A stretch of DNA of 64,000 bases from Paracoccaceae bacterium. GTDB taxonomy: Bacteria; Pseudomonadota; Alphaproteobacteria; Rhodobacterales; Rhodobacteraceae. Made by a program: the position numbers and the translations under genes. This document shows positions 3,827 through 57,557 of the stretch, piece after piece. Position 1 is the first letter of the stretch. Each line of letters begins with the position of its first letter. Under the pieces are notes generated by a model. It searched no databases. It was not told the origin of the DNA and saw only the letters and a program-made list of their open reading frames with translations. The stretch is taken from NCBI GenBank assembly GCA_017854585.1, contig JAFMHK010000002.1, positions 124,001-188,000 of the forward strand, read 5' to 3'.

Positions 3827-5239
3827 ATGCAACCGAACATCTCCGCCGCCAAGGCCGCCCTCGCCCACATCGAACAAGACGAAAACCCGGCCACCATCCG
3901 GGCCAAATCCCGCGATTTCTTTTGGTATTCACCCGTGCTCAAGGCGCGGATGGATCATCTGGAGGCCGATTTCGTGGTGAACCCGCGCAATGAGGCCGAG
4001 GTGATCGAGGTACTGCGGGCCTGCTACGCCCATGACGTCCCCGTAACCACGCGTGGCGCGGGAACGGGGAATTACGGGCAGGCGATGCCAATGCGCGGTG
4101 GCTGCGTCATGCACCTGCGCCACATGTCGGCGGTCAAGGAAATTGCGCCGGGCCGCGTGATCTGCGAACCCGGGATTCTTCTGAAAGATCTTGATGCCGC
4201 CTGCAAGGCGCACTCGGGGCAGGAAATCCGCATGTTCAGCTCCACTTGGGCGACTGCGACGATCGGCGGCTTCATCGCCGGCGGTTCGGGCGGTGTCGGA
4301 TCCTGCACCTGGGGGTCGTTGCGCGACCTCGGGAACATCATCCGTCTGCGTGTCGTCACGATGGAGGCAGAGCCGCGCGTGCTGGAATTCCGGGGCGAGG
4401 AACTGGCCCGGGTGAGCCATGCCTACGGCACAAACGGCATCATTACCGAAATCGAAATCCCCCTTGCCCCTGCCTATGACTGGGTCGAGATGTTCGTAGC
4501 CACCAAGGACTTCATGGAGGCCGTGCACTTCACCGATGAGTTGGCCAATCAGGACGGCATCTTGATCAAGCTGGGCAGTGTGTATGAAGCGCCTGCGCCG
4601 TTTGATTATTTCAGCAGGGTCAAACCCCATATCGCGGCGGATGATACGCTGATTGGGCTGATGGTCGCGCCGCATTCCATGGACGGATTCCTGACCTTCC
4701 TTGCACGCCGTCCCTTCGCGCGGCTGATCTATCGCTCGGATGCAAGCACATGGACCAAGACGCCCGGACCGGTTTTCGAATATGGCTGGAACCACACGAC
4801 GCTCAGGGCGCTGAAAGTGGACCCCTCAATTACCTATTTGCAGGTGCGTTACGGGTTTCCCGATCATATCGCCTTGATCAAGAAGATGCGCGATGCGCTC
4901 AACCCCGAGGTGTTGCAGCACCTTGAGGTTCTGCGCATGGACGGAAAAGTTGCCTTTGCCGGCTTGTCGCTGGTGAAGTTCACGACCGAAGAGCGTCTGG
5001 ACGAGATCGTGAAGATGCACGAGGACGCGGGCGCGATGATCTTCAACCCGCATCGCTACACGCTGGAGGAAGGCGGGCGGCAGGCGGTTGATGACAGGCA
5101 GCTTGCCTTCAAGCGCGAAGCGGACCCCAAGGGCCTGCTGAACCCGGGCAAGATGATTGCATGGGACGATCCAGCTTGGGGCTATGAGACGATGTACACC
5201 TACCGCGCCATGACCAAACCGGCACAGGCGGCGGAATGA
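3827..5239 (+). CDS. FAD-binding oxidoreductase, GlcD/PCMH-type
   Basis: A 470-residue flavoprotein of the FAD/FMN-containing dehydrogenase family (GlcD, D-lactate dehydrogenase, alkyl-DHAP synthase relatives). The PCMH FAD-binding fold spans roughly residues 45-220, with the nucleotide-binding loop RGAGTGNYGQAMPM and the glycine-rich IGGFIAGGSGGVGS. The C-terminus ends in the family's usual KREADPKGLLNPGKMI. The ATG directly follows the amidohydrolase stop with no gap, so the two are probably made together. It likely oxidises a hydroxy-acid or hydroxylated product of the pathway; no signal peptide is seen. Substrate unassigned. Confidence 0.85.
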   Translation: MQPNISAAKAALAHIEQDENPATIRAKSRDFFWYSPVLKARMDHLEADFVVNPRNEAEVIEVLRACYAHDVPVTTRGAGTGNYGQAMPMRGGCVMHLRHMSAVKEIAPGRVICEPGILLKDLDAACKAHSGQEIRMFSSTWATATIGGFIAGGSGGVGSCTWGSLRDLGNIIRLRVVTMEAEPRVLEFRGEELARVSHAYGTNGIITEIEIPLAPAYDWVEMFVATKDFMEAVHFTDELANQDGILIKLGSVYEAPAPFDYFSRVKPHIAADDTLIGLMVAPHSMDGFLTFLARRPFARLIYRSDASTWTKTPGPVFEYGWNHTTLRALKVDPSITYLQVRYGFPDHIALIKKMRDALNPEVLQHLEVLRMDGKVAFAGLSLVKFTTEERLDEIVKMHEDAGAMIFNPHRYTLEEGGRQAVDDRQLAFKREADPKGLLNPGKMIAWDDPAWGYETMYTYRAMTKPAQAAE

Positions 5240-41740: not shown

Positions 41741-43348
41741 TCAACCCGTTGGGCCATCGGCGGCGGGCAACTCGCCAAAGGCCGCGCGCATCAACTCGCG
41801 GGTATAGTCGTTGCGCGGATGACGGAACAACTGGTCGGCATCGCCGGTTTCCACGACGTCACCCTGCTTCATCACGATGACCTTGTGGCTCAGCGCCCGC
41901 ACCACCCTCAGATCGTGCGAGATGAACAGATAGGCCAACCCGTGCCGCCGCTGCAGATCGCGCAACAGTTCCACGATCTGCACCTGAACGGTCATGTCCA
42001 GCGCACTGGTCGGTTCATCCAGAACCACCAGTTTCGGGCGCAAGATCATGGCCCGTGCAATCGCGATGCGCTGCCGCTGCCCCCCCGAAAATTCGTGCGG
42101 ATAGCGGTGCATCATCACCGGATCCAACCCGACCTCTGCCAGAATTTCGGCCACCTGTTCGCGGTGCCTCGCACGCGGCACACCCTGCACGCCAAGGCCC
42201 TCGGCGACGATCTGTTCCACCGTCATCCGCGGGCTGAGCGACCCGTAGGGATCTTGAAACACAATCTGCATGTCACGCCGCAGTGGCCGCATGTCGCGCG
42301 ATTTCAGCCCCTGCAGGTCGCGCCCCATGAACGCGACCGGCCCCTGCGAGGAGATCAGCCGCATGATCGCCAAAGCCAGCGTCGTCTTGCCCGATCCGCT
42401 TTCGCCGACCACCCCAAGTGTTTCACCGGCCCGCACGCTGATAGTGGCCGCGTTCACCGCCTTCACATAGCCGGCAGTGCGCCGCAGCAGCCCGCGCTGG
42501 ATGGGAAACCACACACGCAGGTCGCGCGTGTTGACGATTTCGGGCGCGCCTTCGGGTACCGGATCGGGACGGCCTGACGGTTCCGCCGCCAGAAGCGTGC
42601 GGGTATACGCGTGCGTGGGGTTGGCGAAAATCTCGGCGGTGCGGCCCTGCTCCACGATCTCGCCGCCCTGCATCACGCAAACCCTGTCGGCAATCCGGCG
42701 CACGATACCCAGATCATGCGTGATGAACAGCAGGCTCATGCCTTCGCTGCGTTTCAGTTCGGCCAACAGTTCCAGAATCTGCGCCTGAATGGTGACATCC
42801 AGCGCCGTTGTCGGTTCGTCGGCGATCAACAGGTCGGGTCCATTGGCCAGCGCCATGGCGATCATCACGCGCTGGCGTTGCCCGCCCGACAATTGGTGCG
42901 GATAACTGTCCAGCCGGGTTTCGGGGTCGCGGATGCCCACCTTGATCAACAACTCGATGATGCGCGCCCGCACCGCCGCACCGCGCAGCCCCTGATGCAG
43001 CGTGATGCTTTCGGCCAACTGCTTTTCCAGCGTGTGCAACGGGTTCAGCGATGTCATCGGCTCCTGAAAGATGAAACTGATGTCGTTGCCGCGCACCCTG
43101 CGCAGTTCGCTTTCCTGCGCGCCGATCATTTCCTTGCCGGCATAGGTCACTGACCCGGTCACCGTGGGGTCGCCGGGCACAAGGTCGACCGTCGACAGCG
43201 CGGTGACCGATTTGCCGGACCCGGATTCGCCCACCAGCGCCACCGTTTCCCCCCGGTCCACATGGAACGTCACACCGCGTACCGCATGAGTGGTCTTGCC
43301 GTCCTGGGTGAACGACACGCTCAGGTTGTTGACGTCCAGCAAGGTCAT
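41741..43348 (-). CDS. yejF: Peptide ABC transporter, duplicated ATP-binding protein (YejF-like)
   Basis: A 535-residue protein made of two fused ATPase domains. Walker A GESGSGKS occurs in both halves (about residues 36-43 and 315-322), each followed by a signature ([16 protein letters not shown]) and Walker B ([24 protein letters not shown]). ATG 43348 overlaps the YejE stop (ATGA). Such fused ATPases serve the Yej-type oligopeptide importers. Uptake of peptides, and in enterobacteria of microcin C, is known for this family; the substrate here is not proven. Confidence 0.93.
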
Positions 43349-44544
43349 TGAAAGGTCTTTCGGGGGTCGAATGCATCGCGGATGCCTTCGAAAATGAAGA
43401 CCAGAAGCGACAGCATGATCGCAAAGGTGAAGAACGCGGTGAAGGCCAGCCATGGCGCCTGCAGGTTGTTCTTGGCCTGCAATGTCATTTCGCCCAGCGA
43501 CGGCGCCGATGACGGCAACCCGAAGCCCAGAAAATCAAGGCTGGCCAACGCGCCGATGGTGCCCGTGACGATGAAGGGCAGAAACGTCAATGTCGCCACC
43601 ATCGCGTTGGGCAACACGTGGCGATACATGATCGTGCCATTCCCGACGCCCAGCGCGCGGGCCGCCCGCACATATTCGAAATTGCGGGCACGCAGGAACT
43701 CGGCCCGCACCACACCCACCAGCCCCGTCCACCCGAACAGCACCATCAAAAAGACCAGCAACCAGAAATTCATGGTGAAGATCGCCGACAGGATGATGAT
43801 CACGAACAGCGACGGCGTGGCATTCCATATCTCGATGATCCGTTGAAAGATCAGGTCCGTGATCCCGCCGAAATAACCCTGCACGGCCCCCGCCGCCATG
43901 CCCAGAACGGTGGTGCAGAACGTAACCACCAGCGCAAAGCTGATGGACAGGCGAAAGCCATAGATGACGCGGGCCAGCACATCGCGCGCGGTGTCGTCGG
44001 TGCCCAGCCAATGGTCCGCATCGGGCGCGGACGGGGCCGACCCGCCGATATCGTTCACCGTGTTGTAGCTGTAGGGCACGATCGGCCACAGCAGCCACCC
44101 GGTCGTGATAGCCTGCCCGTCCAACTCGCCGTCCTGCGCATCGGCAATCACGTCTTCGGGGTCATCCCAGCAGGCTTCGGCCCCGGCGGCGATGATCAGG
44201 CATTGCACCTCGATATCGCGGTAGACGGCTTCGGTGCGGAAATCGCCCCCGAACTGGGTTTCAGGGTAGAAGCTGAAGATCGGCGTATACCATTCGCCTT
44301 CATAACTGACGAGCAGCGGGCGATCGTTGGCGATGACTTCCGCGAACAGTGACAGACCGTAAAGGACGGAGAAGATGATCAGGGACCAAACCGCGCGGCG
44401 GTTGGCCCGGAAGTTGCGCAAACGGCGTTTGTTCAGCGGCGATGGTGTGAACCAGCCGCGCGCCGGTTCCGGCGGCACTAGTGGTGATGTGCCACCCGGT
44501 TGCGGTGCGGGCGAGATGTCGGGGGGCGTGTCAGGCATGGCCAT
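43345..44544 (-). CDS. yejE: Peptide ABC transporter permease (YejE-like)
   Basis: A 399-residue inner-membrane permease. A Pro-rich cytoplasmic N-terminus and the segment KRRLRNFRANRRAVWSLIIF precede the first helix. A long periplasmic insertion (about 65-170) with DWLGTDDTARDVLARVIYG is typical of YejE/OppC proteins. The EAA loop reads VRAARALGVGNGTIMYRHVLPNAM. It starts four bases after the yejB stop. Confidence 0.93.
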   Translation of the reverse strand: MAMPDTPPDISPAPQPGGTSPLVPPEPARGWFTPSPLNKRRLRNFRANRRAVWSLIIFSVLYGLSLFAEVIANDRPLLVSYEGEWYTPIFSFYPETQFGGDFRTEAVYRDIEVQCLIIAAGAEACWDDPEDVIADAQDGELDGQAITTGWLLWPIVPYSYNTVNDIGGSAPSAPDADHWLGTDDTARDVLARVIYGFRLSISFALVVTFCTTVLGMAAGAVQGYFGGITDLIFQRIIEIWNATPSLFVIIILSAIFTMNFWLLVFLMVLFGWTGLVGVVRAEFLRARNFEYVRAARALGVGNGTIMYRHVLPNAMVATLTFLPFIVTGTIGALASLDFLGFGLPSSAPSLGEMTLQAKNNLQAPWLAFTAFFTFAIMLSLLVFIFEGIRDAFDPRKTFQ

Positions 44545-44547
44545 GGC

Positions 44548-45699
44548 TCATGTCTCCCGACTGTTGAAATCGATGCGCGGGTCGATCCAGACATACATCA
44601 GATCCGACAGGATGTTCACGATCAGTCCGATAATCCCGAACACGAACAGGGTGCCGAAAATCACCGGGTAGTCACGGCGCACGGCGGCCTCGAACGCCAA
44701 TCGGCCCAGCCCATCCAGCGAAAAGATGGTCTCGATGATCAGGCTGCCACCAAAGAACACGCCGACGAACACGGCCGGAAATCCGGCAATCACGATCAGC
44801 ATCGCGTTGCGGAACACATGACGGTACAGCACCTGCGTCTCTGACAGGCCCTTGGCTTTCGCGGTCATCACATACAGTTTCTTGATCTCGTCCAGAAAAC
44901 TGTTCTTGGTCAGCAGGGTCAGGGTGGCGAATGCCGAAATTGTCGATGCCAGCACCGGCAGGGTGATGTGCCAGAAGTAATCTCCAATCTGGTGCAGCAC
45001 CCCGAAACTGTCCCAGTTTTCCGATGTCAGGCCCCGCAACGGGAAGATCTGGAAATACCGCCCGCCCGCAAACAGGACCAACAGCAGAATGGCGAACAGG
45101 AAACCGGGGATGGCGTAGGCCACGATGATGATCCCGCTTGTCCATGTATCGAACGGGCTTCCGTCGCGCACCGCCTTGCGAATGCCCAGCGGGATCGACA
45201 CGAGGTAGGCGATCAGGGTCGACCACAGCCCCAGAGAGATGGAAACCGGCATCTTTTCGATCACCAGTTCCACAACCGAGGCCGACCGGAAATAGCTCTC
45301 GCCGAAGTCGAACCGCATGTAGTCCCACATCATGATGAGGAACCGTTCACCGGCGGGAATGGGCTCGGCCACGCAATCATCCGACGCCAGATCGGGTTCG
45401 CCTTCATATCCTTCGGCACAGACGATCCGGGAAAAGTTGAACTGCACCTCAAGCTCGGCCAGAAATTGCGGCGGCAGTCCACGGCTTCCTTGGTAGTTGT
45501 TATCCGCCTCACTGATCCCGCCGCTTTCATTGCCCGCCCCTGAGATACCCGCGAACACATCGCCATCGCCTTCAAGCTGGGCAAGCACCTGTTCGATCGG
45601 ACCGCCGGGCACGAACTGCGTCAGAATGAAGTTCACCATCATGACCCCCAGAAGGGTCGGAATGATCAACAACAGCCGTCTGATGATATAGGCGCCCAT
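44548..45699 (-). CDS. yejB: Peptide ABC transporter permease (YejB-like)
   Basis: A 383-residue permease of the DppB/OppB group. [37 protein letters not shown] is the usual N-terminal helix. A long loop rich in Gly and acidic residues follows (about 45-120), as in YejB. The EAA loop reads [25 protein letters not shown]. It lies six bases after yejA. Confidence 0.94.
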
Positions 45700-45705
45700 A
45701 CCGGG

Positions 45706-47613
45706 TCAGAACGCCCCTTGCGCGCGTAACGCGGCCTCGGCTTCGGGATCGATCCACCAGAAGTCAAGGAAACCAAGCGCGAAGGGGGGCAGCGTTTCGG
45801 GATAACGATACATGTCGTAATAGCTGACCCAGTGGTTGGGGTTATACCATTGCCCGATGCGGATCATCTTGGCCCGCAGGACGCGGTCCAGCGCCGATAC
45901 CGCAACGTTCAGTTCGGCCTGCGTTTCCGCGCCGATCACGATTTCCAACAACTGATCGACCCCTTCATCCGCCAGACCGGGCACGTTGAACAACGCCTCG
46001 TCGGCGCCAAGCGTGCCGAAATACTGACGCAGGCCGGATCCGGGCTCATACCCCATCGGGAAATGGTCGGTGACGATATCGAAATCCTGATCACGCTGGC
46101 GCTGGCTCAATTGGGCAGGGTCCACGCGGTTCAGGCTGGCATCGACACCGATGGCGCGCAGGTTTTCGACATAGGGGTTGATGATTCGGTCAAACAGCGG
46201 GCTGGCATTCAGGAACTCCACCGTCAGCAATTCACCGGCCGCGTTGCGGCGCATGCCGTCGCTGTCGACTTCCCAGCCGGCTTCGTCCAGCAAGTTGCCG
46301 GCCCGGCGCGCCTGACGGCGGTCAAGGGTGCGTTCCGGATCCGATGGCGGCACGCTGAACACCTCCTCGGTGAACACGCGTTCGGGCAGCAGATCGCGCA
46401 GCGGTTCCAGAATGGCCAGTTCCGCCTCCGATGGCATACCCGTTGCCGCAAGTTCGGTGTTTTCCCAAAAGCTGATGTTCTGCCGGTAAAGCCCGTAGAA
46501 CAGGGTCGCATTCGTCCACTCGAAGTTGAACATCAGCGTCAGGGCTTCGCGTACGCGCGGGTCGGAAAACCGGTCTTCGCGCAGATTGATCATGAAGCTC
46601 TGCCCGCTGGAGATCGTGCCGTCCGGCAGTTCCTCGCGCAGAACAATGCCCTGATCAAGCTTGGGGAAATCATAGGCCGTGGCCCACGTCGCGCTGCTGC
46701 TTTCCTGCCGGAAGGTATAGTTTCCTGCGGTGAACCCTTCGAAGGCCGCGATGGCATCACCGTAATATTCAACGCGAATGCTGTCAAAGTTGTGCCGCCC
46801 GCGATTGATCGGCATGTCATTGCCCCAATAGTCGCGGTTGCGGGCGATCACGACGCGCTGGCCGGGCACAACCTCGTCCAACACGTAGGGCGCGGACCCC
46901 ACCAGCGGCACAAGGCGGCTTTCGTTGAAGGCCAGCCCCGAGGCCTCATGACTGGCCCGGCTGAAGACGGGCAAACCGCCCGCCGCCTCGATCCGGCCGC
47001 GCAACGGGGCGTCGGGGTTGAAATCGAACCGGATGCGGCGGTCGTCCAGCGTCTGCGCCCCGGCAACCGTCATGGGAAGCGAGGCGCGGAAACTCGGCAG
47101 GCCTTCGTCCCGCTGAATCTCGTAGGAAAACAGCACGTCATCCGCCGTCACCGGCGTGCCGTCCGAAAACATCGCCCCCTCACGGATGGTGAAGATGACG
47201 TAGGATCGATCTTCGGGGTAGGCGATCGTTTCCGCCAACAGCCCATAGGATTCGCCGATGGTGTCCGCCGTCGATTCCAGCAGTGATTCAAAAAAGAAAC
47301 TCGACAACACGGCCGCGTTGCCGATGTTCGTATACGGATGCAGGCTGTCGAACGATCCGCTGGACCACGAAAACGACATCTCGCCACCCTGCGGTGCATC
47401 GGGGTTCACGTAATTCAGATGCGGATAATCCGCCGGGTAGGTCAGTTCCCCGAAGGTCGAAACCCCGTGTGTCACGATCAGATCGTCCTGCGCCCGCAGG
47501 CCAAGCGCGGTCCCGGCCCAGATCAACGCCGCCAGCATCAGGGGCGCGGCCATTGCCCGTGGCATGACGGTGGCGCGCATGGCGCGCGTTGCAGTGGCGG
47601 GGCGGTTATGCAT
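45706..47613 (-). CDS. yejA: Peptide ABC transporter substrate-binding protein (YejA-like)
   Basis: A 635-residue periplasmic protein of the SBP_bac_5 family. The N-terminus has basic residues and a hydrophobic core (PLMLAALIWAGTALGLRAQ), a signal peptide with cleavage around residue 41. GMSTFGELTYPADYPHLNYVNPDAPQGGEMS-like sequence and REGAMFSDGTPVTADDVLFSYE are typical of YejA. It is the first gene of yejABEF. Unlike the other three binding-protein genes in this window, it is not followed by a stem-loop. Confidence 0.94.
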   Translation of the reverse strand: MHNRPATATRAMRATVMPRAMAAPLMLAALIWAGTALGLRAQDDLIVTHGVSTFGELTYPADYPHLNYVNPDAPQGGEMSFSWSSGSFDSLHPYTNIGNAAVLSSFFFESLLESTADTIGESYGLLAETIAYPEDRSYVIFTIREGAMFSDGTPVTADDVLFSYEIQRDEGLPSFRASLPMTVAGAQTLDDRRIRFDFNPDAPLRGRIEAAGGLPVFSRASHEASGLAFNESRLVPLVGSAPYVLDEVVPGQRVVIARNRDYWGNDMPINRGRHNFDSIRVEYYGDAIAAFEGFTAGNYTFRQESSSATWATAYDFPKLDQGIVLREELPDGTISSGQSFMINLREDRFSDPRVREALTLMFNFEWTNATLFYGLYRQNISFWENTELAATGMPSEAELAILEPLRDLLPERVFTEEVFSVPPSDPERTLDRRQARRAGNLLDEAGWEVDSDGMRRNAAGELLTVEFLNASPLFDRIINPYVENLRAIGVDASLNRVDPAQLSQRQRDQDFDIVTDHFPMGYEPGSGLRQYFGTLGADEALFNVPGLADEGVDQLLEIVIGAETQAELNVAVSALDRVLRAKMIRIGQWYNPNHWVSYYDMYRYPETLPPFALGFLDFWWIDPEAEAALRAQGAF

Positions 47614-49241: not shown

Positions 49242-49257
49242 TCCGGAACGCGCCGCG

Positions 49258-49851
49258 ATGATCACGCCGATCCTTCTGCTTTGCCTGTCACTTGTGGGGC
49301 TGGTCGCCGCGATACTCGTTCCCGGCATGTCCGATCTGTTGCTGCTGGCGGTGCCCAGTACGGTCGCCAGTCTGATCCTTCTGCTGACTGGCTGGCGCAA
49401 GCGCGGCGGGCGCGAGGTCCCGAACTGGGTGGTGCTTGACGGGTCGAACGTGATGCACTGGAAGGACGGGACCGCGCAGATCGAAACCGTGCGCGACGTG
49501 ATCAACGCCCTGACCCGCGCCGGTTTCACGCCCGGCGTCGTGTTCGACGCCAACGCGGGCCACAAGCTGCAGGGCAGTTATCTGAATGACCGGACGCTAT
49601 CGCGACAGCTTGGCCTGCCGCGCGACCGTGTCATGGTCGTGCCGCGCGGCGAACCCGCCGATCCCCGCATTCTGGAAGCCGCGCGCGACTATGGCGCGCG
49701 GATCGTGACCAACGATCGGTTTCGTGACTGGGCGGCGATCCACCCCGAAGTGCACACGGCCGGGCACCTGATCACGGGCGGCTACCATAACGGCAAGCTG
49801 TGGCTGTCGCTGGACGGGGCCGCCGCACCCCAACCGCTTGCGCATTCGTGA
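49258..49851 (+). CDS. Membrane-anchored NYN-domain (Zc3h12a-like) ribonuclease
   Basis: A 197-residue protein. Two hydrophobic segments (about 4-21 and 26-44) form an N-terminal hairpin. A PIN-like NYN domain from residue 56 follows with VVLDGSNVMHW (D61, N64), GVVFDANAGHK (D97) and ARIVTNDRFRDW (D153, D157), the acidic residues expected to bind metal. This matches the RNase_Zc3h12a family. It starts 16 bases after pheA and may be co-transcribed. The active domain probably faces the cytoplasm. Substrate unknown. Confidence 0.85.
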   Translation: MITPILLLCLSLVGLVAAILVPGMSDLLLLAVPSTVASLILLLTGWRKRGGREVPNWVVLDGSNVMHWKDGTAQIETVRDVINALTRAGFTPGVVFDANAGHKLQGSYLNDRTLSRQLGLPRDRVMVVPRGEPADPRILEAARDYGARIVTNDRFRDWAAIHPEVHTAGHLITGGYHNGKLWLSLDGAAAPQPLAHS

Positions 49852-49893
49852 TCAACGGTTTTAGGTGGCCATGTTCCCCGAACGGATGGCCCG

Positions 49894-50820
49894 ATGAACC
49901 CCTTGCGCGGCATTGCCCTCAAAATAAGCTCGGTCTGCGTGTTCATGGCCATGGCGTCATTGATCAAGGCGGTGTCCGACACGATCCCGCCCGGTCAGGC
50001 CGTGTTCTTCCGCTCGCTTTTTGCCACGCCGGTCATCGTCATCTGGCTGTTGTGGCGTCACGAGTTGCACATCGGCCTGCGCACCAAGAACCCGATGGGG
50101 CATGTCTGGCGCGGACTGGTTGGCACGACGTCGATGTTTCTGGGCTTTGCCGGGTTGGGCTTGCTTCCCCTGCCCGAGGTCACGGCCATCGGCTATGCCT
50201 CGCCCTTGTTGGTGGTCATCTTTGCCGCAATGTTTCTTGGTGAAAACGTGCGCGCCTTTCGCCTGTCCATGGTCGCCATGGGCATGGTCGGCGTGCTGAT
50301 CGTGCTTTCGCCGCGCATCGGCATGGACCCGTCCCAAGCTGACGCGCGCGAAACCCTTGGTGCCGTCATCGTCTTGCTGAGCGCGGTCTGCGCGGCCCTT
50401 GCACAGGTTTTCGTGCGTCGACTGGTGAAGACCGAGGGGACTGCGGCAATCGTTTTCTGGTTCTCGATCACCGCAACCCTGATGTCCCTGCTCAGCCTGC
50501 CTTGGGGCTGGGCCATGCCCACAAGCGCGCAGGCGATCATGCTGGTCTCTGCCGGGCTTCTGGGTGGCGTCGGGCAGATCTTGCTGACCTCCAGCTACCG
50601 CCTTGCCGATGCGTCGTTGATCGCGCCCTTCGAATATACCTCGATGTTGCTGGCGCTGACTGTCGGCTATGTCGTCTTTGACGAGGTCCCCACCGTCACG
50701 ATGCTCGCCGGGGCCGCCGTGGTGGTCAGCGCGGGCGTAGCCATCATCTTGCGCGAACACCATCTGGGGTTGGAACGGTCACGCCAGCGCAAGGCGATGC
50801 CGCCTCCCGGCGGGGTCTAG
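49894..50820 (+). CDS. EamA/DMT-family transporter
   Basis: A 308-residue membrane protein with ten predicted helices in two EamA repeats (about 10-140 and 155-290). Each repeat carries the usual Pro/Gly-rich helices, such as PGQAVFFRSLFATPVIVIWLLW and LLLTSSYRLADASLIAPFEYTSMLLALTVGYVVFDEVPT. This family exports amino acids, metabolites or drugs. The substrate is not visible. Its 3' end overlaps the convergent SRPBCC gene by four bases. Confidence 0.9.
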   Translation: MNPLRGIALKISSVCVFMAMASLIKAVSDTIPPGQAVFFRSLFATPVIVIWLLWRHELHIGLRTKNPMGHVWRGLVGTTSMFLGFAGLGLLPLPEVTAIGYASPLLVVIFAAMFLGENVRAFRLSMVAMGMVGVLIVLSPRIGMDPSQADARETLGAVIVLLSAVCAALAQVFVRRLVKTEGTAAIVFWFSITATLMSLLSLPWGWAMPTSAQAIMLVSAGLLGGVGQILLTSSYRLADASLIAPFEYTSMLLALTVGYVVFDEVPTVTMLAGAAVVVSAGVAIILREHHLGLERSRQRKAMPPPGGV

Positions 50821-57373: not shown

Positions 57374-57467
57374 GAGAGGTTGGCGCGGGCAGGCACCTCG
57401 CCAACCTGGTCAGATCCGGAAGGAAGCAGCCACAACGAGACCCGCTTGGGTCGCTGTCCAGCCTCTC
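57374..57467 (+). ncRNA. ffs: Signal recognition particle 4.5S RNA (small bacterial type)
   Basis: The invariant SRP core GGTCAGATCCGGAAGGAAGC is present at 57408-57427, followed by AGCC. The flanks GAGAGGTTGG (57374-57383) and CCAGCCTCTC (57458-57467) pair to close the hairpin; ACCCGCTTGGGT lies on the 3' side. It binds Ffh and targets membrane proteins to the translocon. The rest of 57241-57557 shows no gene; the mature ends may differ by a few bases. Confidence 0.93.
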
Positions 57468-57557
57468 ACCCCAGCGTGCCGCATTGCGGTGCGCGACGCC
57501 GGAACGAAAGCGAAGAATGTCATCAATCGCTCATCCCCGCGCACAGGCCTGCCGGCT

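Follow-up and report, generated by a model that had tools for sequence, protein, structure and literature searches.

Predicted membrane-anchored NYN (Zc3h12a-like) proteins with an altered acidic site and a shifting gene context in the Rhodobacterales

What does a nuclease domain of the Zc3h12a type do directly behind a membrane hairpin in an alphaproteobacterium, and does its position after pheA tell us anything about that role? We have addressed these questions for one gene of a Paracoccaceae bacterium (contig JAFMHK010000002.1), lying in the 64,000-nucleotide stretch of DNA that was analyzed as a whole and is called the window here. The open reading frame at 49258-49851 on the forward strand is a real gene, which starts with an ATG at 49258, ends with its stop codon at 49851 and encodes a protein of 197 amino acids. 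An initial annotation, made from the sequence alone, had described a two-helix hairpin directly before a Zc3h12a-like NYN domain, and hydropathy, the PF11977 match and the AlphaFold2 model all agree with that description. The features of the gene are as follows.

49258..49851, + strand: gene for a predicted membrane-anchored NYN (PF11977) protein, 197 amino acids (open reading frame, Pfam, residue conservation)
49261..49317, + strand: first predicted membrane helix, residues 2-20 (hydropathy maximum 2.69; model helix 2-20)
49336..49407, + strand: second predicted membrane helix, residues 27-50, running into the basic linker RKRGGR (hydropathy 2.21; model helix; charge bias)
49429..49755, + strand: NYN/PIN-like nuclease domain, residues 58-166 (Pfam match, fold searches, profile alignment)
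49438..49449, + strand: motif I, D61-G-S-N64, equivalent to Regnase-1 D141 (D61 invariant, profile alignment)
49546..49548, + strand: D97 within FDAN, behind strand 91-96; an invariant residue with no acidic counterpart in the Regnases (conservation, model, alignment)
49657..49662, + strand: A134-D135, at the position of the D225-D226 pair of the Regnases, with Ala instead of the first Asp (conservation, profile alignment)
49714..49728, + strand: D153-R-F-R-D157, with D153 equivalent to Regnase-1 D244 (conservation, profile alignment)

Domain, fold and nearest relatives

A Pfam search of the window protein identifies PF11977 (RNase_Zc3h12a) at residues 58-166 with 40.5 bits (E 2.9e-10), above the curated cut-off of 23 bits, as its sole Pfam domain; a second domain was not found. 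The CCCH zinc finger is absent beside the NYN domain, as judged by the Pfam search and by the single Cys of the protein, at residue 9. An NCBIfam search gave nothing convincing (MerF at E 0.53, not counted), and the one PHROGs match (E 0.43) was likewise not counted. The AlphaFold2 model, for which the 60-row family alignment A4 served as input, has a mean pLDDT of 92 and consists of helices 2-20 and 27-50 followed by an alpha/beta domain. The best solved structures found with Foldseek are ZC3H12C, ZC3H12B, MCPIP1 and KHNYN (E 2.4e-6 to 1.9e-4), and PRORP2 is also among the best matches (E 5.4e-5). When 50 entries from Foldseek's top 1000 were superposed with VIA-align, ten Regnase/KHNYN entries reached Z 13.5-14.0 (rmsd 2.5-3.0 over 126-133 residues) and a further KHNYN entry Z 12.6, with the entries for PRORP and human mitochondrial RNase P below them at Z 8.4-11.9. 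Rae1 (5mq8) scored Z 8.6 (rmsd 3.2 over 116 residues), equal to an unrelated synthase (8.6), and FEN1, Exo1 and ExoIX scored Z 6.5-7.9, a range below 8 that may reflect merely a common arrangement. The family profile also finds KHNYN (4.8e-5) and ZC3H12C (2.6e-4) among PDB sequences; a single-sequence search of PDB with the window protein gave nothing significant (best 0.084), and the PIN protein TTHA0540 (3ix7) is a weak match both to the single sequence (0.084) and to the family profile (0.0078). The modeled protein is therefore assigned a PIN-like alpha/beta fold with conserved acidic residues, and we infer that it cleaves RNA in a metal-dependent manner.

Comparison with known systems places the Regnase family (ZC3H12A-D/MCPIP1) and KHNYN closest, since they share with the window protein the NYN/PIN fold (Z 12.6-14.0), the DGSN motif I, the second Asp of the DD pair and the ND..RD motif. 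Unlike them, the window protein is bacterial, has predicted membrane helices, carries Ala at the D225/D524 position and an extra invariant D97, and lacks the CCCH finger that the Regnases carry. Protein-only RNase P, namely PRORP and the human mitochondrial subunit, also has an NYN metallonuclease domain (Z 8.4-11.9), but these are proteins of about 470 residues with further parts, such as the PPR arm of PRORP, and no tRNA link was seen for the window family. Rae1 (YacP) of Bacillus subtilis is a bacterial NYN-type RNase as well, but its Z score is no better than that of the synthase, the window protein has no NYN_YacP match in Pfam and Rae1, to our knowledge, has no membrane anchor. RNase-type domains held at the inner membrane occur in RNase Y and in YacL-type PIN-TRAM proteins; however, the catalytic domain of RNase Y is unrelated, and the YacL type combines PIN with TRAM. 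NYN domains themselves were reportedly defined by Anantharaman and Aravind in 2006. The initial annotation regarded the characterized relatives as eukaryotic, which is too narrow, since the available text of PMC11346440 describes both Rae1/YacP and a CRISPR-associated NYN enzyme of Bacteroides fragilis as characterized bacterial members. The B. fragilis enzyme is Mn2+-dependent, degrades single-stranded RNA and resembles the window protein as a bacterial NYN RNase with an Asp-centered site, but it differs in its type III CRISPR locus and three-Asp site, and the word "transmembrane" is absent from the main text of that article (PMC11346440). Elsewhere, in the portions available, a table of candidate gene clusters lists an archaeal Zc3h12a-like protein, to which it assigns 0 membrane segments (PMC11915815), and a paper on a Thermus RNase refers to NYN in passing only (PMC4229858). 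Among titles and abstract starts of the open-access literature we found no description of a membrane-anchored bacterial NYN (Zc3h12a-like) protein, which agrees with the earlier view that such a protein is essentially undescribed.

Acidic residues and membrane anchor

The metal ligands are D141, D225, D226 and D244 in Regnase-1 and D443, D524, D525 and D543 in KHNYN, according to the available parts of PMC8306088 and PMC12709174, respectively. In the profile alignment D61 of the window protein pairs with Regnase-1 D141, D135 with D226 and D153 with D244, and the spacing of 18 residues between D525 and D543 in KHNYN is the same as that between D135 and D153. The D225 position is taken by A134, so that three of the four residues of the Regnase tetra-Asp site (D141, D225, D226, D244) have a match, and D97 pairs with non-acidic Regnase residues. 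The initial annotation stated that all acidic residues are kept and listed D61, D97, D153 and D157; these four are at the given numbers and invariant in close relatives, but the list missed D135, and the D225 position is Ala.

In all 104 distinct sequences compared, of which the window protein is one, D61, D97, A134, D135, D153 and D157 are invariant. Because 80 loci within this set were picked by peptide patterns containing some of these residues, the orthologues found by similarity alone form the fairer set, and in these the same six positions are kept in 29 of 29. Among 22 further relatives, mostly distant (24 rows minus the truncated L161 and L163), D61, D97, A134, D135 and D153 are found in 22 of 22, with residue 157 being Glu in 3 and Asp in the other 19. 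Sets chosen by similarity to the window protein overstate conservation across the wider family. Conservation of the acidic residues in orthologues had been chosen beforehand as the point on which the nuclease reading could fall, and the listed residues proved conserved. Since Ala occupies the D225 position in all 104 plus 22 sequences, activity is not assured. D97 may take the place of the lost D225 ligand, as judged from sequence. The 5'-nuclease of E. coli Pol I carries VDGS, VVFDAKG and GVEADD in matching order, and the counterpart of D97 would be what we take to be the motif II ligand of FEN-type nucleases. Because alignment of Pol I with the family profile is not significant (probability 1.8, E 0.027), D97 as a FEN-like motif II ligand is a lead only. 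D157 lies outside the Regnase tetra-Asp set and is, on the alignment, an accessory residue.

This altered site raises the question of whether the protein is an RNase at all, rather than a protein that binds RNA without cutting it, or a structure-specific nuclease of the FEN or Pol I type that acts on DNA. Every sequence checked has Ala at the D225 position and an Asp following strand 2, which would fit such a reading, as would the Pol I motifs VDGS, VVFDAKG and GVEADD in matching order and the presence of FEN1, Exo1 and ExoIX in the fold list at Z 6.5-7.9. We consider it unlikely, however, since the profile alignment with Pol I is not significant (probability 1.8, E 0.027), Z scores below 8 may mark only a common arrangement when the Regnase/KHNYN folds score far higher (about 14), and the acidic residues are invariant, unlike those of a dead enzyme.

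The predicted anchor was examined in the same 104 sequences. By the Kyte-Doolittle scale with a 19-residue window and a threshold of 1.6, two N-terminal helices are predicted in 68 of the 104 sequences, one in 28 and none in 8, giving at least one in 96 of 104. Seven of the eight helix-less sequences gain one helix if the longest open reading frame is used instead of the chosen start, and the same test applied to the nuclease part as a control is positive in 1 of 104. The mean number of Lys and Arg residues is 4.26 after helix 2 versus 0.16 in the loop, with the same direction in 68 of 68 two-helix members, and 25 of the 28 single-helix members have more Lys and Arg after the helix than before it. 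From this bias the nuclease domain is predicted to be cytoplasmic, and the window protein is predicted to be an integral inner-membrane hairpin with N-in/C-in topology. Among the 24 rows of further relatives a helix is predicted in 18. Of the remaining six, two are truncated, two are carried by a Salipiger plasmid and two belong to a single genome (G166). As the Salipiger plasmid and G166 copies have no clear helix, the anchor is common but not universal.

Distribution and gene context

With the window protein as query, matches are found in 48 of 198 genomes of the window's family, Rhodobacteraceae. Profile A4 matches 118 of 292 genomes of the order (about 40%), in 53 of 113 genera, and 4 of 385 genomes in the class sample, all four in the window's own family; in these order and class searches part of the first-pass candidates were scored (e.g. 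11 of 20). PF11977 matches in 5 of 289 genomes of the class, four of them from the window's own family, and in 11 of 349 genomes of the phylum, all from that family, but a Methanocaldococcus jannaschii control that was positive in the PF11977 search of the window's genome was missed in the class and phylum searches, so these counts may miss members. The fifth class match (G474, L123), outside the window's family, was dropped, as it had no match to the family profile. The window's genome (94.3% complete) has no PF11977 match besides the window gene, and one match per genome is the rule in both the family search (46 of 48) and the order search (113 of 118). Ruegeria species are among the carriers. 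Three plasmid records, all large plasmids, hold copies, and 50,697 phage records yielded no match. In a tree that was used to look for genus clustering only, since it has few columns and 32 of its 77 inner branches are open, rows group by genus. The family is thus patchy and accessory in the order.

Several members depart from the simple form. The match is in two pieces at G531:C22:332830-333370 and G697:C15:28817-31119, which may be frameshifted or interrupted copies. Two neighboring NYN genes occur in G166 (L158 2700-5052, - strand), one of which has a long insert between motif I and the remaining NYN domain, and the Salipiger plasmid (L125) also holds two NYN copies. Extra sequence precedes the NYN domain in L160 (1681-2499), L159 (1981-2886) and L125 (5339-6214 and 7692-8375); that of L160 is weakly YbjQ-like (PF01906, E 2.6e-4, 22.0 bits against a cut-off of 23), and that of L159 and L125 has no Pfam name.

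The gene had been placed downstream of pheA, which is true of the window's genome, but pheA is near the NYN gene in 0 of 109 other loci, with flanks of 1.5 kb examined for L003-L031 and up to 4 kb for L032-L111, shorter at contig ends. Among the same-family genomes with pheA, all 18 have a cytochrome c gene upstream of it, and the order cytC-pheA-SRPBCC-NudC, with the SRPBCC-like gene directly after pheA, is contiguous in 8; neither NYN nor EamA is found at the pheA site in any of the 18. Since the pheA neighbors are conserved without them, the NYN and EamA genes of the window sit as an insertion between conserved neighbors.

49242..50816, no strand: stretch that relatives lack between pheA and the SRPBCC-like gene (18 same-family genomes)

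The NYN gene lies within this stretch, as does the EamA gene except for its very end at 50820. A function linked to pheA was therefore rejected, and no meaning of the location is supported. The EamA-type transporter gene (49894-50820, + strand) shows a weak resemblance to YddG, an exporter of aromatic amino acids (39.7 bits against a cut-off of 300). Further upstream, at 43345-47613 on the - strand, open reading frame translations resemble two ABC-transporter permeases and a solute-binding protein.

The other loci reveal no fixed neighborhood either. The 110 loci, counting that of the window, represent 59 contexts, a count that is too high where gene calling failed and that may include some genomes twice as well as four contig ends from one genome, and their 213 immediate neighbors form 134 families, 91 of them singletons. 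No conserved partner gene or widely shared immediate neighbor was found in the 110 loci; because neighbor genes were delimited by a crude rule based on length and GC3, with a floor of 70 amino acids, a very small partner would have escaped notice. The Pfam tallies, which cover 75 proteins on the upstream and 75 on the downstream side and omit the Pseudooceanicola contig-end loci L082, L083, L086 and L087, were considered for the commonest 25 of 96 and 93 families, respectively. Among the families listed, none has more than four members upstream (DnaJ) or more than seven downstream (HATPase_c, followed by gyrase-B-type and UvrB with six each), and they are mainly housekeeping families, such as UvrB, gyrase B type, TrpA, FolE2, carbonic anhydrase and ClpB type. 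The commonest context is a convergent downstream gene common to ten loci, six of them within the downstream tally; this gene is presumably UvrB, the six tallied ones being the six UvrB members and the other four likewise. K-mer counts in 100 upstream regions revealed no common motif, the strongest k-mers, GCTGCAAAA (6 of 100 versus 0.2 expected) and GGCTGCAA (8 versus 0.7), deriving from related sequences, and no LexA-like box was found in these regions. As there are 12 tRNAs in 110 loci, tRNA as a general insertion site was rejected; a tRNA lies within 250 bp of the NYN gene at four loci (L023, L038, L085 and L089), and at L085 (strain SY-2-17) the NYN unit adjoins tRNA-Tyr. The suggested link to the degradosome or the SRP route gains nothing from this survey, in which no degradosome, SRP or defense link was found. 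The sole Rfam match in the window at the gathering threshold is a bacterial small SRP RNA (RF00169, 51.5 bits) at 57374-57470 (+ strand), about 7.5 kb from the NYN gene.

Such a context could also be that of an anti-phage effector, a membrane-held RNase acting as a single-gene defense that cuts host or phage RNA upon infection. The patchy presence of a single gene with shifting location, its copies on three large plasmids and the proximity of four copies to a tRNA gene (within 250 bp) would fit, but PADLOC models give 0 families for the window protein at E up to 1, the commonest immediate neighbor families among those listed are mainly housekeeping and 50,697 phage records hold no match, so that a defense role appears improbable to us.

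A hint of relocation comes from Pseudooceanicola. P. marinus LMG 23705 has four contig ends (L082, L083, L086, L087), apparently from a unit of about 1.1 kb, with NYN as its only gene, that is present twice and in different surroundings; since the two copies are inferred from four contig ends, an assembly artefact is possible. A dispersed repeat carrying the NYN gene was rejected, because the 5' flank of the unit occurs only beside NYN copies and is therefore not a multi-copy repeat. Short direct repeats that resemble one another weakly are found about 355-359 bp ahead of the gene at four loci and 185-186 bp behind it at three. This edge motif, weak and chosen after being seen, deviates at 3 to 4 of 17 positions ahead of the gene (L083, L085, L086, L090) and at 0 to 3 behind it (L082, L087, L090), and was not found after the gene in L085. 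With up to 2 mismatches it has 6 to 8 sites in each of three Pseudooceanicola-type genomes and 3 in the window's genome, whereas the backward control gave 0 or 1. A clean empty site could not be demonstrated in LMG 23705; the flanks of L085 (around 3944-4845) are about 23 kb apart on one of its contigs (G198:C29), a comparison that suggests a variable site. Relocation of the P. marinus unit is thus a post hoc lead, with no demonstrated element. That the gene is a selfish or toxin-like cassette, persisting by relocation with an RNase harmful or neutral to its host, seems quite improbable, for although the 59 contexts in 110 loci, the two implied copies of the LMG 23705 unit with weak direct repeats at its edges and the insertion between conserved neighbors in the window would agree with it, no transposase or antitoxin was seen traveling with the NYN gene, 46 of 48 and 113 of 118 genomes have one match, genus rows cluster as largely vertical descent would give, and the residues are under strong constraint.

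A proposed role at the membrane

The explanation that we favor, and consider reasonably probable, is that the gene encodes a stand-alone, membrane-anchored, metal-dependent single-strand endoribonuclease of the Regnase/KHNYN kind that is accessory to the cell. It builds on computed results, namely the domain and its fold, the conserved residues, the hairpin with its predicted orientation, and a distribution that is patchy in a context that shifts; catalysis, RNA as the substrate, the use of D97 in place of the D225 ligand and a physiological role are extrapolated. The two-helix hairpin, or one helix in some relatives, would hold the nuclease at the cytoplasmic face of the inner membrane, where D61, D97, D135 and D153 would bind a divalent metal that activates water, and single-stranded RNA would be cut near the membrane by the activated water. 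The role would be accessory RNA decay or RNA surveillance, and the gene would be gained, lost and relocated between strains, outside any fixed operon or complex. The stand-alone reading has a precedent, because bacterial LK-nuclease proteins without conserved gene neighbors are suggested as possible stand-alone RNA-degradation enzymes in the available part of the OST-HTH paper (PMC2848206).

A more specific and, in our view, rather doubtful proposal is that this is a Regnase-fold family, restricted to the window's own family in the samples searched, with a rebuilt metal center, in which D225 is lost and an Asp after strand 2 serves as in FEN and Pol I, with an anchor at the cytoplasmic face, spreading as a one-gene cassette and acting in RNA surveillance at the membrane surface. 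We know of no comparable bacterial RNase that combines membrane-surface RNA surveillance with a rebuilt metal center. Bacterial RNA decay is partly organized at the membrane, and few enzymes are known to us for RNA decay located there. If the favored explanation is true, a membrane-held Regnase-type protein would be a case of local RNA cutting, and its altered metal site would show that PIN-like nucleases can move a metal ligand while the fold stays.
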